This document shows, piece by piece, positions 273-59,298 of a stretch of 64,000 nucleotides of DNA (its first letter is position 1; every line of letters starts with the position of its first letter). The position numbers were made by a program, and so were the translations under genes. The notes under the pieces are model-generated. The model was not told where the DNA came from. It was given only the letters and a program-made list of their open reading frames with translations, and did no database searches. This DNA is from Scylla paramamosain (lineage: Eukaryota; Arthropoda; Malacostraca; Decapoda; Portunidae): the NCBI RefSeq assembly GCF_035594125.1, contig NC_087166.1:17419766-17483765 (forward strand), given 5' to 3'.

Positions 273-710
273 ACCTCTTTGGAAGGCGCCCCTGCTGTTA
301 CCAAACAGAACATACTATGAATTTTACAACTTTTTTTCCTTTCCGATTACTCTGAAGTTTCTTTTACTGTTACCGGTTACACTATGTAATAGAAAAATAA
401 AAAAAAAAGTTATTTTGATCCTAGAAATTTGATTTTGTGGTTAATAGAATGGTTTTACATTTTTCTGTGTGTTATTTCATTGTAGTATGGGTTGCTATTG
501 GTTTTCATGTCAGGTAAGAACCTTTGCAAAATTTCAGTTGCTTATATAATTGTTTTTGAAATGTTGCAAATAACTTAAAACAATGAAAGAAAGAATATAA
601 AGTGTTCTAAAGATTTTTATTTTAATAAGATCATTCTTGAACTGACCAAATTTAACAAGGAATTTCTCATATTTTAAAATAATTTGCTTACATTTAAGAA
701 ATCTCAAATC

Positions 711-946
711 TTCCAGAATGTTCTACCAGACATTTCAAGAAGTTTCTAGAAGATTTCAGAACATTCCATTCAATGTAAAAATTTCCAGAATATTCTAGAA
801 CTTACTAGAATGCAGTAGAAATATGTAGAAATATCAAGATTTTTTTTTTGAATGATTCAGAATATTTTAAAGTAGGTTCAAATATATTCCAGAAAAACTG
901 AGAACATTCTGGAACACATTCTAGAAAGACTGAGAATTTTCTAGAG
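711..946 (+). promoter_or_regulatory. Heat-shock-element array
   Basis: Many inverted TTC/GAA units occur in the 5-bp phase that defines HSF binding sites (nGAAnnTTCn). From 734 to 766, seven consecutive units alternate TTC, GAA, TTC, GAA, TTT, GAA, TTC with only one mismatch. From 783 to 800 there are four perfect units. GAA then recurs exactly every 10 bp at 788, 798, 808, 818 and 828. A second group at 887-946 has GAA at 892, 902, 912 and 924 with phased TTC at 887, 907 and 919. A TATA box follows at 960-967. Known: trimeric HSF binds three or more such units. Inferred: this is the promoter of the CxxC-family copy just downstream. Decay of a TTCTAGAA-type satellite is the alternative. Confidence 0.75.
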
Positions 947-959
947 TACTGTTTGGCAA

Positions 960-967
960 TATAAAAG
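960..967 (+). promoter_or_regulatory. TATA box (TATAAAAG)
   Basis: TATAAAAG lies 14 bp after the last heat-shock-type repeat and close to the start of the CxxC-family reading frame. Array plus TATA box has the layout of an hsp-type promoter. Little room for a 5' leader remains, so the transcription start and the first codon may overlap or the original start may have been lost. Confidence 0.55.
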
Positions 968-974
968 TAGGAGC

Positions 975-2840
975 TTGCAGACCACCAATCAATTCTGCTT
1001 TGGTTGCCTGAGAAGACGTATCACAAGAGGTGAAATAACATCAAGAGGCTGCAATCATTCTCCATATGCATTCTGCTATATATGTGGTCAATACATGAAG
1101 ACAAGAGTAAAGAAGTTCTTTGTTACAGCATCTGGAAAAATGTGCGAAGTTCACAAAACATATTTTGCTGTTCCAGTTGGGGACCAAGAGAAGACTTGGG
1201 CAACTCATTTGGCTTGTGAGCATTGTAAGAGAACACTAGAAGACAAAATAGCTGTTAGTTAGTTTTTCAAGATAAGAATAAGAATTGTTAGTTTTTCAAG
1301 ATAAGAATAGGAATAAGAATTAAGAAGAAAAATGAATTAAGTCTGAAGAAACTCGTTTTTTTTTTTTTTTTTTTTTTTTTTAACAGAATGGTATAGAGGG
1401 TAAAACAGAGCCATGAAATTTGCCATTCCTAGAATAGGGCGTGAAGCTACTGATCACTCAACTGACTGCTTTTTCTGCATGGTGGATCCTTCCAAACGCC
1501 GATCTGGGAAAAATGCACCTGCTGTTTTCTATCCAGACATTTCATCTTCCATTGTACCAGTATCACACAGTGCTGATCTTTCTGTACCAGCTCCTTCAGA
1601 AAGTCGTCAACTATCAGAAAAGAGCAACAAGTCAGAAGATGAGCTAAACAGAGAGGAAGACTGTGACATCACAGATACAGATGTAGTTAGGAGGAATCCT
1701 TACTACCCAAATCAAAGAGACCTCAATGAGCTCATCAGAGATCTTGGTTTGACAAAGTCAAATGGTGAACTTTTGATTTCAAAGCTGAAGTAATGGGATT
1801 TACTTGATGACAGCGTGCAGGTGACCAGCCAAAGAAAAAGACACAAACATTTTTCCATCTTCTTTGCAATGGAAGATAGGCTATGGTACTGCAATGATGT
1901 ATCAGGTTTGTTTGATGCTATTGGAATTGCTTTCAGTGCAAATGAATGGAGACCCCTTCAAAAGTCTGAAAAGTTGTACTTCTGCACAATGGAAACAAAT
2001 AACCATCTCAGCCTCTTGCTCATTCTGTGCATCTTAAGGAGGACTACAGCAGTGTAAAGTTTCTACTGGACACTTTGAACTACAATAAGTATGGCTGGGA
2101 CTTCAAGATGGTGGCTTTCTTGATGGGGCTGCAAGGAGGTTATACCAAGAATCCCTGTTTTCTTTGCCTTTGGGACAATAGAGTAGCACATTACCAGAGA
2201 AAGCACTGGCCTCCAAGGACTGACACTACAGAGGGAGCACACAATATCAAACATGAGCCATTGATGAATCCTTAAAAGAATTTGTTTCCTCCACAACACA
2301 TCAAACTGGGTCTCATGAAACAGTTTGTTACAGCTCTTGACAAGGAATCTACTGCCTCCAATTATCTTCAAAACTTCTTTCCCAAGCTTTCAGAGGCACA
2401 GGTGAAAGCTGGTATCTTCACTGGAACACAAGTAAGAAAAATAATGGAGTGTTCAGAATTTCTACAGAAGCTCACAGAAAAGGAGGAAAAAGGTTGGGAG
2501 TGGTTCATTGCTGTAGTACAGAGCTTTCTTGGCAACATCAAGGCTATATGGAACTGGTTGAAACTTTAATGAAAAGCTATTGTGAAATGGGCTGTAGAAT
2601 GTCCTTGAACGTCCATATCCTAGATGCTCACCTCGACAACTTCAAGCAGAATATGGGAGCATATTCAGAGGAACAAGGGGAGAGCGTCCACCAAGGTATA
2701 ATGAACTTTGAACAGAGATATCAGGGATCCTTCAATGAAAACATGATGGAAGATTACATTTGGGGGTTCATACGTGAAAGTGATGTGTTGTATTCACGCA
2801 AATCAAGAAGAAAACTGTTCATTTTTAATCCTAAAAACTA
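975..2840 (+). pseudogene. Decayed copy of a multi-copy arthropod CxxC/zinc-finger-like gene family
   Basis: Segments in several frames line up with one protein family that I remember as highly repeated and unnamed in crustaceans, aphids and hydra. Diagnostic blocks in order are FCYICGQY (about 1070), VGDQEKTWATHLACEHC (1174-1227), MKFAIPRIGRE (1413), DCFFCMVDPSKRR (1467), DLNELIRDLGLTKS (1719), LMGLQGGYTKNPCFLCLWD (2119), HIKLGLMKQFVTALDKES (2296), YSEEQGES with RRYQG-like FEQRYQG (2662-2730) and MMEDYIWGFIRESD (2743). CxxC pairs suggest metal binding; the biochemical role is unknown. No ATG precedes the first block. An in-frame TAA lies near 1402 and at least three frameshifts follow, so it is broken. 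A T-rich tract ending in an acceptor-like TTTTAACAG at 1388 suggests an intron at about 1250-1388. A heat-shock array and TATA box lie directly upstream. Confidence 0.7.
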
Positions 2841-4687
2841 GTTTCAGAAATTTTTAAGTAAGTTTTGGGTCTTTTGATTTTTTTTTTTCATTTTTTTTCT
2901 ATACAAACATGGTGAAAATGGTGAAATTTAGCTATTTTTGTTGAAAAAAAAAAATCATTCTAAAAGCCATAAAAGCAAAGTTAGATAGGAATAATGGACA
3001 TTTTCTATTATTCTTCAATGAAAAGAGTTCGAAAATAACACTCGTTTGTCAAAGGCAAAAATCGTGTTACATAGTGATAGATTTGAGAAATAATTTCTTA
3101 GGAGAAAGTAACTTAATTTTTTTATATGATGATTTTTGGGGAAACGCAGCAGCCCGCCCTGTGTAGTCAACTCCGCAATATTTATAACCAAAATCTTTAT
3201 CCCTATCAAATACCGTATCATAGGGCGTACGTACATGGGCATCGAAAAAAAATAAATAAATAAAAATAATCCCCAAATATGTTTCAGTTTCTACAGAAGT
3301 ATTCAGTCCATAATAACTCAGAGCCTAAAAGATAAGTATGTATTTGAAAATATTCACTCCTGACTCGTCATAATATTCTTTGTTACTGTTAGTGACATGT
3401 CTTATATATACAAACAAAACTGAAGGCTGTAATATGGCTCAAAAAACGAAATCGTATATATACGTACTAAACACTTCCCTAAGAGGTATGTATATATGCG
3501 TATTAAACACTGTACGAGGTTATACTTAATATGGAGATTATAAATAAGAGGAAAGAACATGCAGCCAAGGGGAAGGAGGTAAGAGTAATGAAATGTAGGA
3601 GGTAAGAGGAAGTTAGTAAAGAGAAGAGACACTGAATCTAAGAGTTAAAATGGAGAAACTTGGAGGTTTCAAGATGAATCATTCTGAAGTTAAGAGGGAG
3701 ATTGGGTTTGAGGAAGATTAAAGTAGATGGAAGTTGATTTTTTTTTTTCTAAGTTTGGATTGCAGAAAAAAAAAAACGAAATAGGAAATAAGAGGAAAAA
3801 AAAGTTAACATTTAAGAGCTGAGGCTTCTTTCACAAGGGCCACTTACAGGACAGCTTTATGACTCGCGAGTAATGCTTCAGCACCACTACTCACGCGCGT
3901 CGTTAGCGCTGCTAATGTAGCTATAAAGCCATGTTTAAAAAATTATTGAATTGAATTGCGCATTAACTTAAACGCTGGCGAGGCTGCAACTACGTGATTG
4001 CTACAGTTCATTGCAAAGCTTCGTGAACAGCAGTGATACTTTTTGCTGCTGTGAAGGCAATCAGTGATCGTAGCTGCTAGCGTAAATCTCTATTAACCGC
4101 AGTATTCACTGTCAGTGGCGTTGCTGAAAACCCTTAAATGGCCGATTTTAAGAGGCTAAAAGAAATGATGTTGGAGTTAAGAAGTAATGAAGAAGATTCT
4201 GGTATTCAATTATCATAAACAGAAAAGTAGATTTTTTAAAATTATTTTCGGATAATTATAACAACGTCAAAGAGATTACACAATTATTACTTGAGTTATA
4301 TCTCTAGCCCTTTCGTATCCCGACCAGATTTAAATTTTCCCGATCGTTGGGTTGACATGTACATTTAGTATAGAACTCTCTATACAAAGCTTAGCTCCAC
4401 CTTGCATGTCACGTTACAAGTAGATACCAATACAAACGACATTTACCATACCTTTTCTTGTTGAGAGATGTACAAGATAAGTATAGGCTTGTAACTGATA
4501 TCCTGCGGATATTGAAGTTGGAAAACAACAACTATTTACATTGTTTTCTGTAGACTAGCTGGCGCCGCTAGGCTATAGGTGGGATAACCACCCGACAAAT
4601 TTTCTTTAAATTCTTTTTTGAAATTTGCAAATTTATTTATTTTATTTATATAGTTTTTTTTTATATTTTTTGGATTTTTTATTTATT

Positions 4688-7310: not shown

Positions 7311-7703
7311 TATTTGGTTTATTAATCTTGTAGTCTTACAGTCTTACAATCTGAAATTCCACATGTTACATACTTATATACTAACATGCATACTACAGCT
7401 TAATTAAGTATACATTTTAACCCTAAGGAAGTACCTTACAGTTTGATACCGTGGCTGCCAAATAGCAGGATAGGCCCGGGATGGTCAGGCCACCCCGTTT
7501 GTATTTTGTTTCAAGAGTTTGTTTCTCCTGCCTAGCATCGGGTCACAACTCCCGACTTAACACTAGGTACCTAATCACTAGAAGGTGAACAGGGGCTACA
7601 CTATAAAGAAGTCTGCCCAACGACTTATGACCTGACATGGGATTCGAACCCGGGCCCTCCCGAATGTGAATCGGGCGCGCTAACCACTGCGCTACCAGGA
7701 AAA
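7290..7703 (-). mobile_element. tRNA-Val-derived SINE
   Basis: The right end, read on the - strand, is a tRNA-like head with the A box TGGTAGCGCAGTGG (7684-7697) and B box GGTTCGAATCC (7640-7650). The arm CCCGA-TTCACAT-TCGGG gives anticodon CAC (Val-like). These are RNA polymerase III internal promoter elements. A non-tRNA body of about 330 bp follows, then an (ATT)n tail. A homologous body without the tRNA head lies at about 51501-51835, which shows this is a dispersed family and not a functional tRNA gene. The T-arm is imperfect. The partner LINE that mobilises it is not evident. Confidence 0.8.
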
Positions 7704-11665: not shown

Positions 11666-13498
11666 TCAGAAGTGCAGGGTGGTATCATCAGCATAGGAGT
11701 GGATAGGACAAGAAGTTTGGTTTAGAAGATCATTAATGAATAATAAGAAGAGAGTGGGTGACAGGACAGAACCCTGAGGAACACCACTGTTAATAGATTT
11801 AGGAGAAGAACAGTGACCGTCTACCACAGCAGCAATAGAACGGTCAGAAAAGAAACTTGAGATGAAGTTACAGAGAGAAGGATAGAAACCGTAGGAGGGT
11901 AGTTTTGAAATCAAAGCTTTGTGCCAGACTCTATCAAAGGCTTTTGATATGTCCAAGGCAACAGCAAAAGTTTCACCAAAGTCTCTAAAAGAGGATGACC
12001 AAGACTCAGTAAGGAAAGCCAGAAGATCACCAGTAGAGCGGCCTTGACGGAACCCATACTGGCGATCAGATAGAAGGTTGTCAAGTGATAGATGTTTAAG
12101 AATCTTCCTGTTGAGGATAGATTCAAAAACTTTAGATAAGCAGGAAATTAAAGCAATAGAACGGTAGTTTGAGGGATTAGAGCGGTCACCCTTTTTAGGA
12201 ACAGGTTGAATGTAGGCAAACTTCCAGCAAGAAGGAAAGGTAGATGTTGACAGACAGAGCTGAAAGAGTTTGACTAGGCAAGGTGCAAGCACGGAGGCAC
12301 AGTTTCGGAGAACAATAGGAGGGACCCCATCAGGTCCATAAGCCTTCCGAGGGTTTAGACCAGCGAGGGCATGGAAAACATCATTATGAAGAATTTTAAT
12401 ACGTGGCATGAAGTAGTCAGAGGGTGGAGGAGAGGGAGGAACAAGCCCAGAATCGTCCAAGGTAGACTTTCTAGCAAAGGTTTGAGCAAAGAGTTCAGCT
12501 TTAGAAATAGATGTGATAGCAGTGGTGCCATCTGGTTGAAGTAGAGGAGGGAAAGAAGAAGAAGCAAAGTTATTAGAGATATTTTTGGCTAGATGCCAGA
12601 AATCACGAGGGGAGTTAGATCTTGAAAGGTTTTGACATTTTCTGTTAATGAAGGAGTTTTTGGCTAGTTGGAGAACAGACTTGGCATGGTTCCGGGCAGA
12701 AATATAAAGTGCATGAGATTCTGGTGATGGAAGGCTTAAGTACCTTTTGTGGGCCACCTCTCTATCATGTATAGCACGAGAACAAGCTGTGTTAAACCAA
12801 GGTTTAGAAGGTTTAGAACGAGAAAAAGAGTGAGGAATGTACGCCTCCATGCCAGACACTATCACCTCTGTTATGCGCTCAGCACACAAAGACGGGTCTC
12901 TGACACGGAAGCAGTAGTCATTCCAAGGAAAATCAGCAAAATACCTCCTCAGGTCCCCCCAACTAGCAGAGGCAAAACGCCAGAGGCACCTTCGCTTAGG
13001 GGGATCCTGAGGAGGGATTGGAGTGATAGGACAAGATAAAGATACGAGATTGTGATCGGAGGAGCCCAACGGAGAAGAAAGGGTGACAGCATAAGCAGAA
13101 GGATTAGAGGTCAGGAAAAGGTCAAGAATGTTGGGCGTATCTCCAAGACGGTCAGGAATACGAGTAGGGTGTTGCACCAATTGCTCTAGGTCATGGAGGA
13201 TAGCAAAGTTGTAGGCTAGTTCACCAGGATGGTCAGTGAAGGGAGAGGAAAGCCAAAGCTGGTGGTGAACATTGAAGTCTCCAAGAATGGAGATCTCTGC
13301 AAAAGGGAAGAGGGTCAGAATGTGCTCCACTTTGGAAGTTAAGTAGTCAAAGAATTTCTTATAGTCAGAGGAGTTAGGAGAGAGGTATACAGCACAGATA
13401 AATTTAGTATGAGAATGACTCTGTAGTCGTAGCCAGATGGTGGAAAACTCGGAAGATTCAAGAGCGTGGGCACGAGAGCAGTTTAAGTCATTGCGCAC
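11666..13498 (-). CDS. LINE L endonuclease-reverse transcriptase ORF (610 codons, partial)
   Basis: Non-LTR retrotransposon polyprotein. It nicks target DNA and copies element RNA by target-primed reverse transcription in the nucleus. Visible motifs are the APE-type LGDFNVHH (residues 73-79) and SSDHN (146-150); RT blocks YGPDGVPP (387-394), [16 protein letters not shown] (444-459), [10 protein letters not shown] (482-491), the catalytic Asp in ALDISKAFD (514-522), [13 protein letters not shown] (572-584) and SYADD (601-605). The first 100 residues, including the endonuclease TET glutamate motif, are encoded upstream (13511-13813) but are separated by a TGA. The C-terminal domain continues in another frame at 11694-11248 and 11351-10929 after an internal deletion. 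It is therefore inactive as it stands, although long stretches are intact. Confidence 0.9.
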
Positions 13499-13510
13499 AT
13501 AAACGCAGCA

Positions 13511-38048: not shown

Positions 38049-38822
38049 CTAGTAATATAAATAGTGAGGGTGTTGATTGAAATACACTGTCCTCCCTGAA
38101 CGAGTTGTACGAGGGAAATTAGGCATGGTAAGGCGAGGAAGATCAAACTGGAAATGAGCAGAAGGGGAAGGTGTAGAAGCAGAGATATCAGGCAAAGGAG
38201 ATGAATTAGAGTCTAAGGTAGACGTAGTCAGGTCATCTCTGTCATTAGATGGTGCTTGTCTGGTGATTGGTATATAAGCTGGCTTCAAACGGTCAATAGA
38301 TACAGACGTGTCACCCTGAGGTAGTCTGAGGATGAAATATTTCGGGACACGTTGTATTACTTCATAAGGTCCCGAATAAGGAGCTTCTAAACTTTTGCGA
38401 ACTCTGTCAATCCGCACCCAGACCTTTGAACATGAAAACAGAACGTTAGGAACATATGGTTTAGATGAGGAGTGACATTCACCTGATGAAAAGTTATAAA
38501 AATCAATGGCCTGCATTTCTTTAATCAAGCGGTGTATAGTATCTTTGTTTGTTGATATCGGCGAGTCTTTAGTGATAATTGCAGAAGGACACAACATATG
38601 AGTTCCTGTGACAGCAGTGAATGGCGAGTAACTGGTCATATTAGGTGTCAAGCGATATCCAAGTAAGACTATGGGCAAAGCATAAAACCAGTTCTCTTGT
38701 CTAGCACGTATCGCTGATTTTAGAGAGCGGTGATGGCGTTCAATGATACCGTTCGCTTGAGGATGATAAGCAGTTGTTCGTATGTGATGGAAGCCAATAA
38801 TTGAGGAAAGCTCGGAAAACAA
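38049..38822 (-). pseudogene. Gypsy integrase, C-terminal half
   Basis: Contains TAYHPQANGIIERHHRSLK with the third catalytic acidic residue (Glu) of the DDE core, the LLGYRLTPNMTSYSPF block, and a basic tail ending RTTRSGRTVYF, which is typical of gypsy Pol C-termini. The frame is separated from the upstream half by a short deletion and frameshift just after the second catalytic Asp (VTD, about 38855). It is the 3'-most gene of the element and stops about 30 bp before the polypurine tract. Confidence 0.85.
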
Positions 38823-38829
38823 CTCACTT

Positions 38830-39762
38830 TCAAATTGAGCTGTCTGTCACTACCTGTAGCGGTACTCCAAAACGAGAAATCCAACCAGCCACGAATGCAA
38901 TAGCGACGGAGCTCGCGGTGGTGTCTATTACAGGTATAGCTTCCGTCCATCTTGTCGCTCTGTCAATGCAAGTGAGAAGGTAACTGTATGGGAGAGGGTA
39001 TAGGTAGTTAGGAAGAATAGCAGGAGGCAATGGTCCAACAGTATCTACATGAACAGTCTGGAAGCGATCAGTAGGAGTAGAAATAGGAGAAACTGGTGAT
39101 ATTGTGTGTCTGTGTGTTTTAGCTTGTTGACATTTAAGACAATTCGTTACAAACTCCTTTATATCTTTGTCCATACAAGGCCAGAAATAACGTTGTTTAA
39201 TTATTTTAGCAGTGGCTTTAATACCAGGATGAGATAGATCGTGTAATGAATGAATGACATTTATCCTAAGAGAAGAAGGAACAAACGGTCTTGGTGCGTT
39301 GGTAGATGTGTCGCACCATAGAGAGAGATTAGAGGGCAAGGTATAATTGGATAATCTCTCCTTGTACAAACCGACCTCGGTGTCACCTTCCTGGGAACGA
39401 GCTATGCCACACAAGTCGAAAGAATCAACTGAAATTGCACATGATGGTCTTGATAAACAATCGGCAACAACATTGTTGTCCCCACGGATGTACACTACTG
39501 ATGATACATATTCAGAGATTAAAGAAAGTTGCCGTTGTTGCCTATCAGACTTTGCAACTGACTTAGAATGAAAGGCAGAAACTAAAGGTTTATGGTCAAG
39601 GAACAAGGTGACCGAGTGGTCATCAATGAGTGTTTTTAAGTGAATGACAGCCAAATAAGAAGCTAAGAGTTCTCTGTCATAGGTGGAATAGGATTTCTGA
39701 GTGTCAGAGAGCTTTTTGGAATAAACTCCTAGAGGCGTAGGCGTGTCATCTATAATCTGGTA
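38830..39762 (-). pseudogene. Gypsy RNase H end and integrase N-terminal half
   Basis: The frame from LINE B leftwards starts with the RNase H segment (YSKKLSDTQKSYSTYDREL, then LFLDHKPLV and DNNVVADCLSR). It runs into the HHCC zinc domain of integrase (HDLSHPGIKATAKIIKQRYF, CLKCQQAK) and the first catalytic Asp block VHVDTVGPLPP, and ends near the second Asp. LINE B interrupts the RNase H domain at its start: the other half lies at 43048-43308. No major break is visible inside 38830-39654. Confidence 0.85.
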
Positions 39763-42700
39763 TTTTTTTTTTTATGTAGGAAGGATACTGGCCAAGGGCA
39801 AAAAAAATCTAATAAAAAAAATGCCCACTGAAATGCCAGTCCCATAAAGGGGTCAAAACAGTGATCAAAAATTGGTGGATAAGTGTCTTCAAACCTCCCT
39901 CTTGAAGGAAGTCAAGTCATAAGAAGGTGGAAATACAGAAACAGGCAGGGAGTTCCAGAGTTTACCAGAGAAAGGGATGAATGATTGAGAATACTGGTTA
40001 ACTCTTGCGTTAGAGAGGTGGACAGAATAGGGGTGAGAGAAAGAAGAATGTCTTGTGCAGCGACGCCGCGGAAGAAGGGGAGGCATGCAGTTAGCAAGAT
40101 CAAAAGAGCAGTTAGCATGAAAATAGCGGTAGAAGACAGCTAGATATGCAACATTGCGGCGGTGAGAGAGAGGCTAAAGACAGTCAGTTAGAGGAGAGGA
40201 GTTGATGAGACGAAAAGCTTTTGATTCCTCCCTGTCTAGAAGAGCAGTATGAGTGGAACCCCCCCAGACATGTGAAGCATACTCCATACATGGACGGATA
40301 AGGCCCTTGTACAGAGTTAGCAGCTGGGGGGGTGAGAAAAACTGGCGGAGACGTCTCAGAACACCTAACTTCATAGAAGCTATTTTAGCTAGAGATGAGA
40401 TGTGAAGTTTCCAGTTCAGATTATATGTAAAGGATAGACCGAGGATGTTCAGTGTAGAGGAGGGGGACAGCTGAGTGTCATTGAAGAAGAGGGGATAGTT
40501 GTCTGGAAGGTTGTGTCGAGTTGATAGATGGAGGAATTGAGTTTTTGAGGCATTGAACAATACCAAGTTTGCTCTGCCCCAATCAGAAATTTTAGAAAGA
40601 TCAGAAGTCAGGCGTTCTGTGGCTTCCCTGCGTGATATGTTTACCTCCTGAAGGGTTGGACGTCTATGAAAAGACGTGGAAAAGTGCAGGGTGGTATCAT
40701 CAGAGTAGGAGTGGATACGACAAGAAGTTTGGTTTAAAAGATCATTAATGAATAATAAGAAGAGAGTTGGTGACAGGACAGAACACCACTGTTAATAGAT
40801 TTAGGAGATGAACAGTGACCATCTACCAAAGCAGCAATAGAACGGTCAGAAAGGAAACTTGAGATGAAGTTACAGAGAGAAGGATAGAAACCGTAGGAGG
40901 GTAGTTTGGAAATCAAAGCTTTGTGCCAGACTCTATCAAAGGCTTTTGAGATGTCCAAGGCAACAGCAAAAGTTTCACCAAAGTCTCTAAAAGAGGATAA
41001 CAAGACTCAGTAAGGAAAGCCAGAAGATCAACAGTAGAGCAGCCTTGACGGAACTCATACTGGCGATCAGATAGAAGGTTGTGAAGTGATAGATGTTTAA
41101 GAATCTTCCTGTTGAGGATAGATTAAAAAACTTTAGATAAGCAGGAAATTAAAGCAATAGGACGGTAGTTTGAGGGATTAGAGCGGTCACCCTTTTTAGG
41201 AACAGGTTGAATGTAGGCAAACTTCCAGCAAGAAGGAAAGGTAGATGTTGACAGACAGAGCTGAAAGAGTTTGACTAGGCAAGGTGCAAGCACGGAGGCA
41301 CAGTTTCGGAGAACAATTGGAGGGACCCCATCAGGTCCAAAAGCCTTCCGAGGGTTTAGGCAAGCGAGGGCATGGAAAACATCATTGCGAAGAATTTTAA
41401 TAGGTGGCATGAAGTAGTCAGAGGGTGGAGGAGAGGGAGGAACAAGCCCAGAATCATCCAAGGTAGAGTTTTTTGCAAAGGTTTGAGCAAAGAGTTCAGC
41501 TTTAGAAATAGATGTGATAGCAGTGGTGCCATCTGGTTGAAGTAGAGGAGGGAAAGAAGAAGAAGCAAAGTTATTGGAGATATTTTTGGCTAGATGCCAG
41601 AAATCACGAGGGGAGTTAGATCTTGAAAGGTTTTGACATTTTCTGTTAATGAAGAAGTTTTTAGCTAGTTGGAGAACAGACTTGGCATGGTTCCGGGCAG
41701 AAATATAAAGTGCATGAGATTCTGGTGATGGAAGGCTTAAGTACCTTTTGTGGGCCACCTCTCTATCATGTATAGCACGAGAACAAGCTGTGTTAAACCA
41801 AGGTTTAGAAGGTTTAGGACGACAAAAAGAGTGAGGAATGTACGCCTCCATGCCAGACACTATCACCTCTGTTATGCGCTCAGCACACAAAGACGGGTCT
41901 CTGACACGGAAGCAGTAGTCATTCCAAGGAAAATCAGCAAAATACCTCTTCAGGTCCCCCCAACTAGCAGAGGCAAAACGCCAGAGGCACCTTCGCTTAG
42001 GGGGATCCTGAGGAGGGATTGGAGTGATAGGACAAGATAAAGATATGAGATTGTGATCGGAGGAGCCCAACGGAGAAGAAAGGGTGACAGCATAAGCAGA
42101 AGGATTAGAGGTCAGGAAAAGGTCAAGAATGTTGGGCGTATCTCCAAGACGGTCAGGAATACGAGTAGGGTGTTACACCAGTTGCTCTAGGTCATGGAGG
42201 ATAGCAAAGTTGTAGGCTAGTTCACCAGAATGGTCAGTGAAGGGAGAGGAAAGTCAAAGCTGGTGGTGAACATTGAAGTCTCCAAGAATGGAGATCTCTG
42301 CAAAAGGGAAGAGGGTCAGAATGTGCTCCACTTTGGAAGTTAAGTAGTCAAAGAATTTCTTATAGTCAGAGGAGTTAGGAGAGAGGTATACAGCACAGAT
42401 AAATTTAGTATGAGAATGACTCTGTAGTCGTAGATGGAAAACTCGGAAGATCCAAGAGCGTGGGCACGAGAGCAGGTTAAGTCATTGCGCACATAAACGC
42501 AGCATCCAGCTTTGGATCGAAAATGAGGATAGAGAAAGTAGGAGGGAACAGAAAAGGGGCTACTGTCAGTTGCCTCAGACACCTGAGTTTCAGTGAGGAA
42601 AAGAAGATGAGGTTTAGAAGAGGAGAGGTGGTGTTCTACAGATTGAAAATTAGATCTTAGACCGCGAATGTTGCAGAATTAATGAAGAAAAAGTTGAGGG

Positions 42701-43576: not shown

Positions 43577-44464
43577 TCAATGAAGCGCTGAAAAGTGGAA
43601 CTTGCGTTTTTTTAGACCAAAGGGCATATACAAAAATTCAAACAGACCAAACGGTGTGCATACTGCAGTCTTAGGTACATCATCTTTGGCCACAGGGGTC
43701 TGCAAGTATGCACGCTGTAAATCGATCTTTGAAAATATGGTCTTACCCTTAAGTGACATGGTGAGACAGCGCAAATGTGGTATGGGATATTTATCATTCA
43801 CAGTTACGTTATTGAGTTCGCGATAGTCACCACAAGGTCTCCAAGCACCGGGCTCCTTCTTAGGCACGAGGTGCAGAGGAGACGCCCAAGGAGCGTTAGA
43901 GCGCCGAATGATTCCGGCATTAACGAAAAACTGAAATTCATCTTTAGCCGCTTTGAGCTTCTCACCTGTCAAAGGTCTTGCTTTGAAATGTATAGGAGGT
44001 GAGTCACCTGTATCAATACGATGGTGTATAGTTTCCACAGGAGGTGTAGTAGCTGACAACTGCAAAGGTGAAGTGAGAACCGGAAACTGAGAAAGGAGTT
44101 CAACAGCTTTTGAGTCTACCCCATTATAATTAACCAAATATGAAGAATTAGGAGAATAAGAAACTTCAAGAGGAATCTTACATTGGGTAGAGGAGTCTAT
44201 TAGCGACTGGCTTTTACAGTCTACCATTAGTGAGTTAGCTGCAAGAAAATCGGTTCCCAAAATTGGATGTATAACGTCAGCAATGGCGAAAGACCAAGGG
44301 AAAGAACGCCTAATACATCGTATCCCAAGGTCTACATCGACTTCACCATAACAACGTATGGGTTTACCTGAAGCATTAGTAAGAGTAACAGCAGTTGGCC
44401 TGAGGAATGGAGTAAGTTCTGATTCATTAGGAAGCAGCGAAAGTGATGAACCAGTATCTATCAA
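43577..44464 (-). pseudogene. Gypsy protease and N-terminal RT
   Basis: Starts with the aspartic protease motif DTGSSLSLLP, followed by the LGTDFLAANSLMVDC flap region. It then passes into RT: IRRSNAPWASPLHLVPKK, GAWRPCGDYRELN, TIFSKIDLQRAYLQ (first catalytic Asp) and FLYMPFGL. One extra A in a homopolymer at about 43610 shifts the frame before the YLDD box, so the encoded polymerase is broken. Protease and RT are adjacent in one frame, as usual for gypsy Pol. Confidence 0.9.
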
Positions 44465-44553
44465 AAATTGGTAATTCTTGCAACCGATTGTGGCACTTAC
44501 TCCTCTAAGTGGCAGTCCGACGGTCGCAACTGATATTTCTACGGACTGCCCTA

Positions 44554-45448
44554 CTAGTTTCCCGCGAGGTGAAATACACGAGCGGGGGAAGAAGAACGAG
44601 AATTAGGGCGAGAATCTGGCAAAATATTAGAAGCTGTAGAAGAAAGTATACACCATCGTTTACATGATTTTGCCCTGTTACCATAATACAGATGGTATCT
44701 GCACACCTGAGGACGCTGACCTTCATGAAAGGCGCGCACTCCAATGGGAACACAAGTTTTAGAAAATACATTATCCTGACAAGCTGAAGTGAAATTTGGG
44801 CTTCTATTACCATTATATCTGTTCCGGCTCGCAGGCCTGGACCCTTGTCCACCTTCCACCATGGAAACATTAGCGCTGTTGTTTACACTCGCATTACTTG
44901 AGCCATAGGCCAATAATGTCTCAGCTACACGAGCCAGTTCCTCTAGTGTAGAGCTCTCCTCATATGTCATTAGGAGAGGTCTGATGCTACTAGGTAATGC
45001 TTTCAAAAATTTTTAACTTTACAAAGGAATCATCCACCCCTAGTTGAGTAGCTATTTTACGCAACTCTCAAATACGTGGAAGGTCTGTCACACATTATGT
45101 TATTTTGATTAACAAGAGAGTCAAAAACTTCTGGTTTTGACCTGGTTTTGACCTGGTGAAAAGAGATATCAAAGATTGCTTTAATTCACCATAGTTTGAA
45201 GAATTGATGACTTCATCACTCAATTGATTGATTACTCTAAGTGGCAAATTTGATAATATATGGTGAAATTTAGTACTTGAAACAGTGATCTTGGCAAGAA
45301 CAAACTGTGATTCAATTATTATAAACCAGCGTGTTACTGAAGTCTCATCAAAGGGTGGTGGTTTGACGGCAACACCTGCGGTCATGGAAGAAACACTATC
45401 CTGCGACGCACTAGATGTAAGTAGCGAACCCTCGTCCTGGTTCGGCAT
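44554..45448 (-). pseudogene. Gypsy gag
   Basis: Starts MPNQDEGSLLTSSASQD at 45448. It contains the capsid-like core (PPPFDETSVTRWFIIIESQF, LSDLP-like and LPSSIRPLLM with EELARVAETLL) and a nucleocapsid knuckle C-x2-H-x9-C-x3-C (about 44645-44700). Two breaks are visible: a tandem 11-12-bp duplication (TTTTGACCTGG twice, about 45131-45155) and an extra A near 45010, each shifting the frame. Gag packages element RNA into virus-like particles. Confidence 0.85.
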
Positions 45449-45603
45449 AGTTCCAAGGGCATAGATTCCAAACAGGACAAAAGTAAAATAATGAAGTACC
45501 TGGACGACCAGCATATAGTCACTGTGTAGTTATTGTCTGCCACCAATCACCACAGTCCGTAGGCCGTCCCTGCTCCACGATGATCACGTTACGTCTGGTC
45601 ACT

Positions 45604-51997: not shown

Positions 51998-54338
51998 TAT
52001 GGTATCATCAGCGTAGGAGTGGATAGGACAAGAAGTTTGGTTTAGAAGGTCATTAATGAATAATAAGAAGAGAGTGGGTGACAGGACAGAATCCTGAGGA
52101 ACACCACTGTTAATAGATTTAGGAGAAGAACAGTGACCGTCTACCACAGCAGCAATAGAACGGTCAGAAAGGAAACTTGAGATGAAGTTACAGAGAGAAG
52201 GAGAGAAGCCGTAGGAAGGTAGTTTGGAAATCAAAGCTTTGTGCCAGACTCTATCAAAAGATTTTATATGTCCAAGGCAACAGCAAGAGTTTTACCAAAA
52301 TCTCTATAAGAGGATGACCAAGACTCAGTAAGGAAAGCCAGGAGATCACCAGTAGAGCGGCCTTGACGGAACCCATACTGGCGATCAGATAGAAGGTTGT
52401 GAAGTGATAGATGTTTAAGAATCTTCCTGTTGAGGATAGATTCAAAAACTTTAGATAACCAGGAAATTAAAGCAATAGGACGGTAGTTTGAGGGATTAGA
52501 ACGGTCACCCTTTTTAGGAACATGTTGAATGTAGGCAAACTTCCAGCAAGAAGGAAAGGTAGATGTTGACGGACAGAGCTGAAAGAGTTTGACTAGGCAC
52601 GGAGGCACAGTTTCGGAGAACAATAGGAGGGACCCCATCAGGTCCATAAGCCATCCGAGGGTTTAGGTCAGCGAGGGCATGGAAAATATCATTGCGAAGA
52701 ATTTTAATACATGGCATGAAGTAGTCAGATGATGGAGGAGAGGGAGGAACAAGCCCAGAGTCATCCAAGGTAGAGTTTTTTGCAAAGGTTTGAGCGAAGA
52801 GTTCAGCTTTAGAAATAGATGTGATAGCAGTGGTGCCATCTGGTTGAAACAGAGGAGGGAAAGAAGAAGCAAAGTTATTGGAGATATTTTTGGCTAGATG
52901 CCAGAAGTCACGAGGGGAGTTAGATCTTGAAAGGTTTTGACACTTTCTGTTAATGAAGGAGTTTTTGGGTAGTTGGAGAACAGACTTGGCATGGTTCCGG
53001 GCAAAAATATAAAGTGCATGAGATTCTGGTGATGGAAGGCTTAAGTACCTTTTGTGGGCCACCTCTCCTTCATGTATAGCACGAGAACAAGCTGTGTTAA
53101 ACCAAGGTTTAGAAGGTTTAGGACGAGAAAATGAGTGATGAATGTACCCCTCCACGCCAGACACTATCACCTCTGTTATGGACTCAGCACACAAAGACGG
53201 GTCTCTGACACGGAAGCGGTAGTCATTCCAAGGAAAATCAGCAAAATACCTCCTCAGGTCCCCCCAACTAGCAGAGGCAAACCGCCAGAGGCACCTTCGC
53301 TTAGGGGGATCCTGAGGAGGGATTGGAGCGATAGGACAAGATAAAGATATGAGATTGTGATTGGAGGAGCCCAACGGAGAAGAAAGGGTGACAGCATAAG
53401 CAGAAGGATTAGAGGTCAGGAAAAGGTCAAGAATGTTGGGCGTATCTCCAAGAGGGTCAGGAATACGAGTAGGGTGTTGCACCAATTGCTCTAGGTCGTG
53501 GAGGATAGCAAAGTTGTAGGCTAGTTCACCAGGATGGTCAGTTAAGGGAGAGGAAAGCCAAAGCTGGTGGTGAACATTGAAGTCTCCAAGAATGGAGATC
53601 TCTGTAAAAGGGAAGAGAGTCAGAATGTGCTCCACTTTTGAAGCTAAGTAGTCAAAGAATTTCTTATAGTCAGAGGAGTTAGGTAAGAGGTATACAGTAC
53701 AGATAAATTTAGTCTGAGAGTGACTGTATAGTCGTAGCCAGATGGTGGAAAACTCGGAAGATTCAAGAGCGTGGGCACATAAACGAATCATCCAGCTTTG
53801 GATCGGAAATGAGGATAGAGAAAGTAGGAGGGAACAGAAAAGGGGCTACTGTCAGTTGCCTAAGACACCTGAGTTTCAGTGAGGAAAAGAAGATGAGGTT
53901 TAGAAGAGGAGAAGTGGTGTTCTACAGATTGAAAATTAGATCTTAGACCGTGAATGTTACAGAAGTAAATGAAGAAAAAGTTGAGGGGGGGGTGTCAAGA
54001 CACTTAGGGTCGTCGACAGAAAGGCAGTCCGACCTGGGGACATTTATGGTCCCCTTCCCAGATGGGGACTCCGAGGCTGGTGTATGAGTCGCCATTATGA
54101 TTTTTAAATTTTTGAGTGAAGGGTGTGTGTGTTATTAGGTGCTTGTAGTTTTGTGTGAAGGAAGAGAGTTGTCTTTAGAGGGCAGGCTGTGACTGCCCCA
54201 TTGTGTTGTGAGACACAAAGGGAAACGTTCAGTCAGGTCACAGCTGGGTTTAATGATAAATTCACAGCATCCCCTGAACGGTGATTTAGACCTCACTGGG
54301 AGTAATTACCGTTTCGGCCGGTGTCTACTGCCTCCTCC
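51998..54338 (-). mobile_element. LINE family L copy, 3'-truncated
   Basis: Full 5' end (54338), 5'UTR, leader, endonuclease and RT up to YADD, but no C-terminal domain or 3'UTR: it starts at GGTATCATCAGC. Loss of the 3' end is unusual for LINEs and implies a later rearrangement, or that the CR1-like piece to its left marks a deletion junction. Confidence 0.88.
52514..53791 (-). CDS. LINE L ORF segment, endonuclease and N-terminal RT (425 codons)
   Basis: Open from after the first endonuclease block through [17 protein letters not shown] (Asp to Asn in the SDH motif of sister copies) and the linker to [20 protein letters not shown] short deletion removing the LAPC coding region, at about 52598, shifts the frame so that RT continues at 52264-52647 in another frame. 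The start of the protein (13511-13813 equivalent) is upstream in another frame, after a deletion at about 53770. Inactive. Confidence 0.85.

Positions 54339-58009: not shown

Positions 58010-59298
<1,289 letters not shown>

Follow-up and report, generated by a model that had tools for sequence, protein, structure and literature searches.

Heat shock elements in front of a repeated gene

What is a dense array of heat shock elements (HSEs) doing in front of a gene that recurs across the genome of the portunid Scylla paramamosain? The question is raised by 64,000 nucleotides of contig NC_087166.1 (positions 17,419,766 to 17,483,765, forward strand; this whole stretch is called the window), in which a decayed transposon copy spans positions 380-3076. 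The answer favored here, which is considered quite probable, is that this element is of the CACTA/Mirage/Chapaev/Transib kind and that expression of its transposase gene came under the host heat shock factor (HSF) through about 35 HSE units placed just ahead of a TATA/initiator core promoter.

The array lies at 711..946 (+ strand) and consists of 31 GAA/TTC triplets, most of which follow one another at a 5-bp phase. An earlier interpretation made from the letters alone (the sequence-only reading) had described seven units phased at 5 bp (one of them mismatched), a group of four perfect ones and five GAA at 10-bp spacing, and all are present, at 734, 739, 744, 749, 754 (mismatched), 759 and 764, at 783, 788, 793 and 798, and at 788, 798, 808, 818 and 828 respectively. 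Its judgement that the array exceeds chance is borne out, as none of 5000 dinucleotide shuffles reached the 14 opposite pairs at 5 bp (shuffle mean 0.52) or the 14 same-strand pairs at 10 bp (shuffle mean 0.50) counted in 711-946. Pair spacings in the window copy peak at 5, 15 and 25 bp for opposite strands and at 10 and 20 bp for the same strand, and the only two runs of at least four units in the whole window both fall within the array, compared with 0.02 per shuffled window (100 shuffles). Contiguous runs of 3, 4, 4 and 3 units were found, consistent with an HSE being defined as at least three contiguous inverted nGAAn units (PMC13086497).

The array ends about 14 bp upstream of a TATA box, TATAAAAG (960..967, + strand), which is followed by an initiator-like TCAATTC (989..995, + strand; consensus TCAGTTC) whose A stands 31 nt past the first T of the TATA box. 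TCAGT is the arthropod initiator, and transcription of the window copy likely started at about 991. The array-to-TATA distance agrees with the sequence-only reading. The coding frame, however, does not start near 985, a position close to the likely transcription start; judged from copies and homologues, the coding part begins about 45 nt further on and is broken in the window copy.

Conservation of the array among family copies

A DNA search of the 1.21-Gb host genome with window positions 985-1800 gave 832 candidate places, 40 of which were scored; their 43 rows were counted as 40 copies including that of the window, and all 40 were retrieved. The repeat is a single unit with the HSE part contained inside. 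In 36 of the 39 scorable copies (one was excluded for N), the upstream phased units exceeded all 500 shuffles of the copy itself, so that the first refutation named by the sequence-only reading, family copies lacking HSEs upstream, did not occur. Opposite 5-bp pairs averaged 12.4 per copy in the array region and at most 1.1 in six other regions. Runs of at least four units numbered 41 in 11.6 kb of promoter versus 1 in 228 kb elsewhere, the latter being the displaced array of copy L021; a run of at least three units was present in 36/40 copies and one of at least four in 30/40.

A consensus of the array was built from 31 of the 40 copies, leaving out eight whose array was truncated, displaced or absent, as well as one that contained N. 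It holds 39 in-phase units, 35 of them in the main array (the window copy retains 27 of these 35), followed by TATAAAAG and then TCAGTT with its A 31 nt further; TATAAAA is exact in 19/39 copies. An A precedes GAA in 34/39 units, and recurrence from unit to unit is confined to the triplet, this A and a T bias ahead of it; the two bases that follow GAA are nearly free. The mean divergence from consensus is 0.074, which under assumed rates of 2-4e-9 would correspond to an age of about 18-37 million years.

Spread of the array with deleted copies

A perfect 6-unit pattern occurs 227 times in the host genome, against 0 for the reversed control and an expectation of 0.04-0.1. Among the 50 distinct sites listed of these 227, 49 match the 28-mer of the element at 7 or more of 10 free positions (random 1.4%). 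The least similar one, C4:27948049, had been considered as the promoter of an Hsp gene, which was rejected when the retrieved DNA turned out to be an element copy with a deletion. In a search with the promoter only (764 candidate places), all 40 scored places matched, and the six best loci outside the first copy set were retrieved. Five are internally deleted elements, two of them (L050 and L051) with both ends present, and the sixth, L052, represents a left fragment; runs of at least three units persist in every one of them. Thus, in these six loci and C4:27948049, the array without its gene occurred only as deleted copies or fragments of the element, and the gene-less satellite envisaged by the sequence-only reading as a refutation was not seen.

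Internal deletions recur at about window positions 1838-2597 (L021, L037, L040, L045 and L047), 1480-2273 (L049 and L050) and 1142-2914 (L053, L054 and L055), and this recurrence suggests that the element gave rise to three non-autonomous subfamilies, which carried the promoter region along as they spread. Additional 3-unit HSE runs were also observed in L052 (328-537), beyond its element-aligned part.

Nature of the element and its transposase

The left terminal inverted repeat, CACTATGTAA (380..389, + strand), is an inverted match to the right one, TTACATAGTG (3067..3076, + strand). Among the copies, left ends of the CACTATGTAACA type could be matched at 26 loci and right ends of the GTTACATAGTG type at 29, where a few of the right-end matches are probably spurious. 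Between these ends lie, with inferred borders, a broken exon 1 coding for a ZAD-like zinc-binding N-terminus (1035..1242, + strand) and a probable intron (1243..1386, + strand), which is GT-AG in a 35-copy consensus, has a degenerate donor in the window copy and has no counterpart in homologous proteins; the transposase gene would therefore probably have at least one intron. Exon 2 (1387..2841, + strand), supported by open pieces and homologues, is likewise broken: it codes for a DDE transposase core that stops and frameshifts interrupt. The open pieces are 1404-1790, 1794-2054, 2003-2272, 2276-2566 and 2341-2838.

By its conserved residues and predicted fold, the family is a DNA-transposon transposase, in line with the earlier guess of a mobile or selfish gene. 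D260, D308, C330, H484, H489 and E506 are invariant in homologues and C327 is nearly so, giving a DDE triad whose second D and E enclose C(2)C and H(3-4)H, as described for CMC/CMCT transposons (PMC12730594). The same group has CA..TG ends in most cases and target site duplications of 2-5 bp (PMC12730594, PMC4411706), and CA..TG termini are provided here by the CACTATGTAACA-type and GTTACATAGTG-type ends. The predicted fold is RAG1-like, RAG1 and Transib being matched as structures only. These data point to a cut-and-paste element broadly of the CACTA/Mirage/Chapaev/Transib (RAG1-fold) kind. Helitron ends have no inverted repeats, and a Helitron identity was rejected on the DDE core and the inverted ends.

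Database comparisons indicate that proteins of this transposase family are widespread among animals. Where the best 120 of 1734 homologues bear a name, they are called uncharacterised, hypothetical or unnamed, apart from one labelled as an E3 ligase; one of the 120 has precomputed Pfam domains (immunoglobulin-like). When six window pieces and four homologues were compared with Pfam, no match exceeded the cut-off, and a sequence search of PDB gave nothing below E 0.2. A viral or bacterial origin was rejected, no relative being found in viral contigs (three window pieces and an alignment) or in genome contigs (the alignment). The family is multi-copy, as the sequence-only reading had it, but not confined to arthropods, with homologues in fish and sturgeon. 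The protein of L018 (3150-4265) shares 74% identity with a fish (Myxocyprinus), 72% with sturgeon, 67% with mantis shrimp and 55% with Palaemon shrimp; since the fish and sturgeon proteins are closer than those of mantis shrimp and Palaemon, there is a hint of horizontal transfer of the element.

Other features of the window

Frames judged by eye show non-LTR (long terminal repeat) retrotransposon copies with endonuclease and reverse transcriptase at 11666-13510, 41123-42172 and 52514-53845, and Ty3/gypsy-like protease, reverse transcriptase and integrase pieces at 38049-39771 and 43577-45529, all on the - strand. A tRNA match of 39.9 bits at 7628-7701 (-) is either a gene or a tRNA-derived repeat, and a very long TA microsatellite at about 58700-59170 is visible as IYIY frames.

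A proposed heat-responsive transposon and its alternatives

Under stress, host HSF trimers would bind the array of about 35 units cooperatively and, through the TATA/initiator core promoter directly behind it, raise transposase mRNA, tying transposition to heat or other proteotoxic stress, while copies, including internally deleted non-autonomous ones, have dispersed the array across the genome. Since shrimp HSF1 binds two isolated promoter HSEs and activates through them (PMC13086497), 35 units beside a TATA box should respond to HSF if chromatin allows. Because the copies carry such a dense heat shock switch, the host stress response probably turned the element on.

Several observations weigh against this explanation. 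No intact transposase frame is left in the window copy, and the one host HSF DNA-binding match above cut-off covers just positions 21-58 of 100. Three of the 39 scorable copies fail the shuffle comparison (L021, in which an insertion displaced the array, and the truncated L032 and L044), and L017 passes with just five units. Flanks of copies favor TAA or TTA at both ends (L050 has TTA/TTA), but a target-site duplication is not proven because same-copy flanks agree no oftener than mispaired ones (3-base matches in 5/19 versus 4.4; a spurious end is probable in at least 3 of these 19 pairs). In the 31 aligned copies, GAA/TTC cores are conserved no better than spacers (p = 0.32) and not clearly better than flanks (p = 0.10); when each base is compared separately, conservation in cores slightly exceeds that of other positions for A and T and falls slightly below it for G and C. 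Consequently, copies decay neutrally after insertion, and they bear no sign of later use.

That the cores do not surpass the spacers in conservation would also suit a 10-bp-period minisatellite of no regulatory role, and Tandem Repeats Finder gives three weak short arrays (periods 10, 10 and 12) in the window copy. This is nevertheless very improbable, as recurrence is limited to the triplet, the preceding A and the T bias, the strict-phase alternation extends over about 250 bp beside the TATA box, and phased units are retained in the 36 copies noted above. Plant CACTA elements carry subterminal repeats, and the array could, like those of En/Spm, hold binding sites for the transposase of the element rather than for HSF; the CACTA-related catalytic part and the retention of the array in gene-deleted copies speak for this. 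It is an unlikely reading all the same, given that the array starts several hundred bp inside the left end, is confined to one side (close to the right end, copies average 0.11 phased pairs), abuts the TATA box and fits the HSE definition nTTCnnGAAnnTTCn (PMC13086497). Less improbable than these, though still doubtful, is that, in addition to or in place of driving the transposase, the dispersed arrays matter mainly to neighboring host genes or as an HSF sink, which is partly compatible with an HSF-driven transposon. All 50 listed sites of the 227 trace to the element (49 by 28-mer, one by retrieval) and Helitron HSEs rewire Caenorhabditis genes (PMC6927752); the neutral decay of the cores argues against it.

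Comparison with known heat-responsive elements

ONSEN is heat-activated and uses host heat shock factors, and thereby resembles the proposed behavior of the present element; unlike it, ONSEN is a plant Copia-type LTR retrotransposon. ONSEN of Arabidopsis is also named in the work on Caenorhabditis (PMC6927752), where almost two-thirds of C. elegans HSEs lie within Helitrons, many non-autonomous, and Helitron Rep-helicase mRNA increases with heat. Those Helitrons (Helitron1_CE and others) are likewise dispersed DNA transposons with clustered tandem-like HSEs ahead of the transposition gene. They differ in having a rolling-circle Rep-helicase instead of a DDE core, inverted ends and a TATA/initiator, and in that HSF binding and induction were demonstrated for them (PMC6927752), whereas here both are predicted.

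CMC(T) transposons (EnSpm/CACTA, Mirage, Chapaev, Transib) share the DDE triad with C(2)C and H(3-4)H, the CA..TG ends and the RAG1-like fold, but their descriptions, in the available parts of PMC12730594 and PMC4411706, make no mention of the ZAD-like N-terminus or the HSE promoter present here. Cryptococcus CNEST is a CMC transposon that moved oftener at 37 degrees and is thus alike as a heat-mobilised CMC element; in the available text, however, HSEs are proposed for the LTR elements TCN12 and TCN3 (one or two putative ones) and none is mentioned for CNEST (PMC12810828). Among the titles and abstract openings listed by a literature search that covered few subscription papers, no animal DDE transposon bearing HSEs was found. 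HSE-carrying animal DNA transposons are already known from the Caenorhabditis Helitrons (PMC6927752); what is new within the literature searched is the element class (DDE) and the length of the array.

Taken as correct, the proposed explanation would add to the Caenorhabditis Helitrons a further animal DNA transposon tied to HSF, of another class (DDE versus rolling-circle), and would open the link between stress and transposition to direct testing. If the 50 listed sites represent all 227, almost every perfect 6-unit HSE array in the Scylla paramamosain genome comes from the element, and chromatin immunoprecipitation (ChIP) and RNA-seq studies of heat shock in this host would for that reason have to reckon with it.
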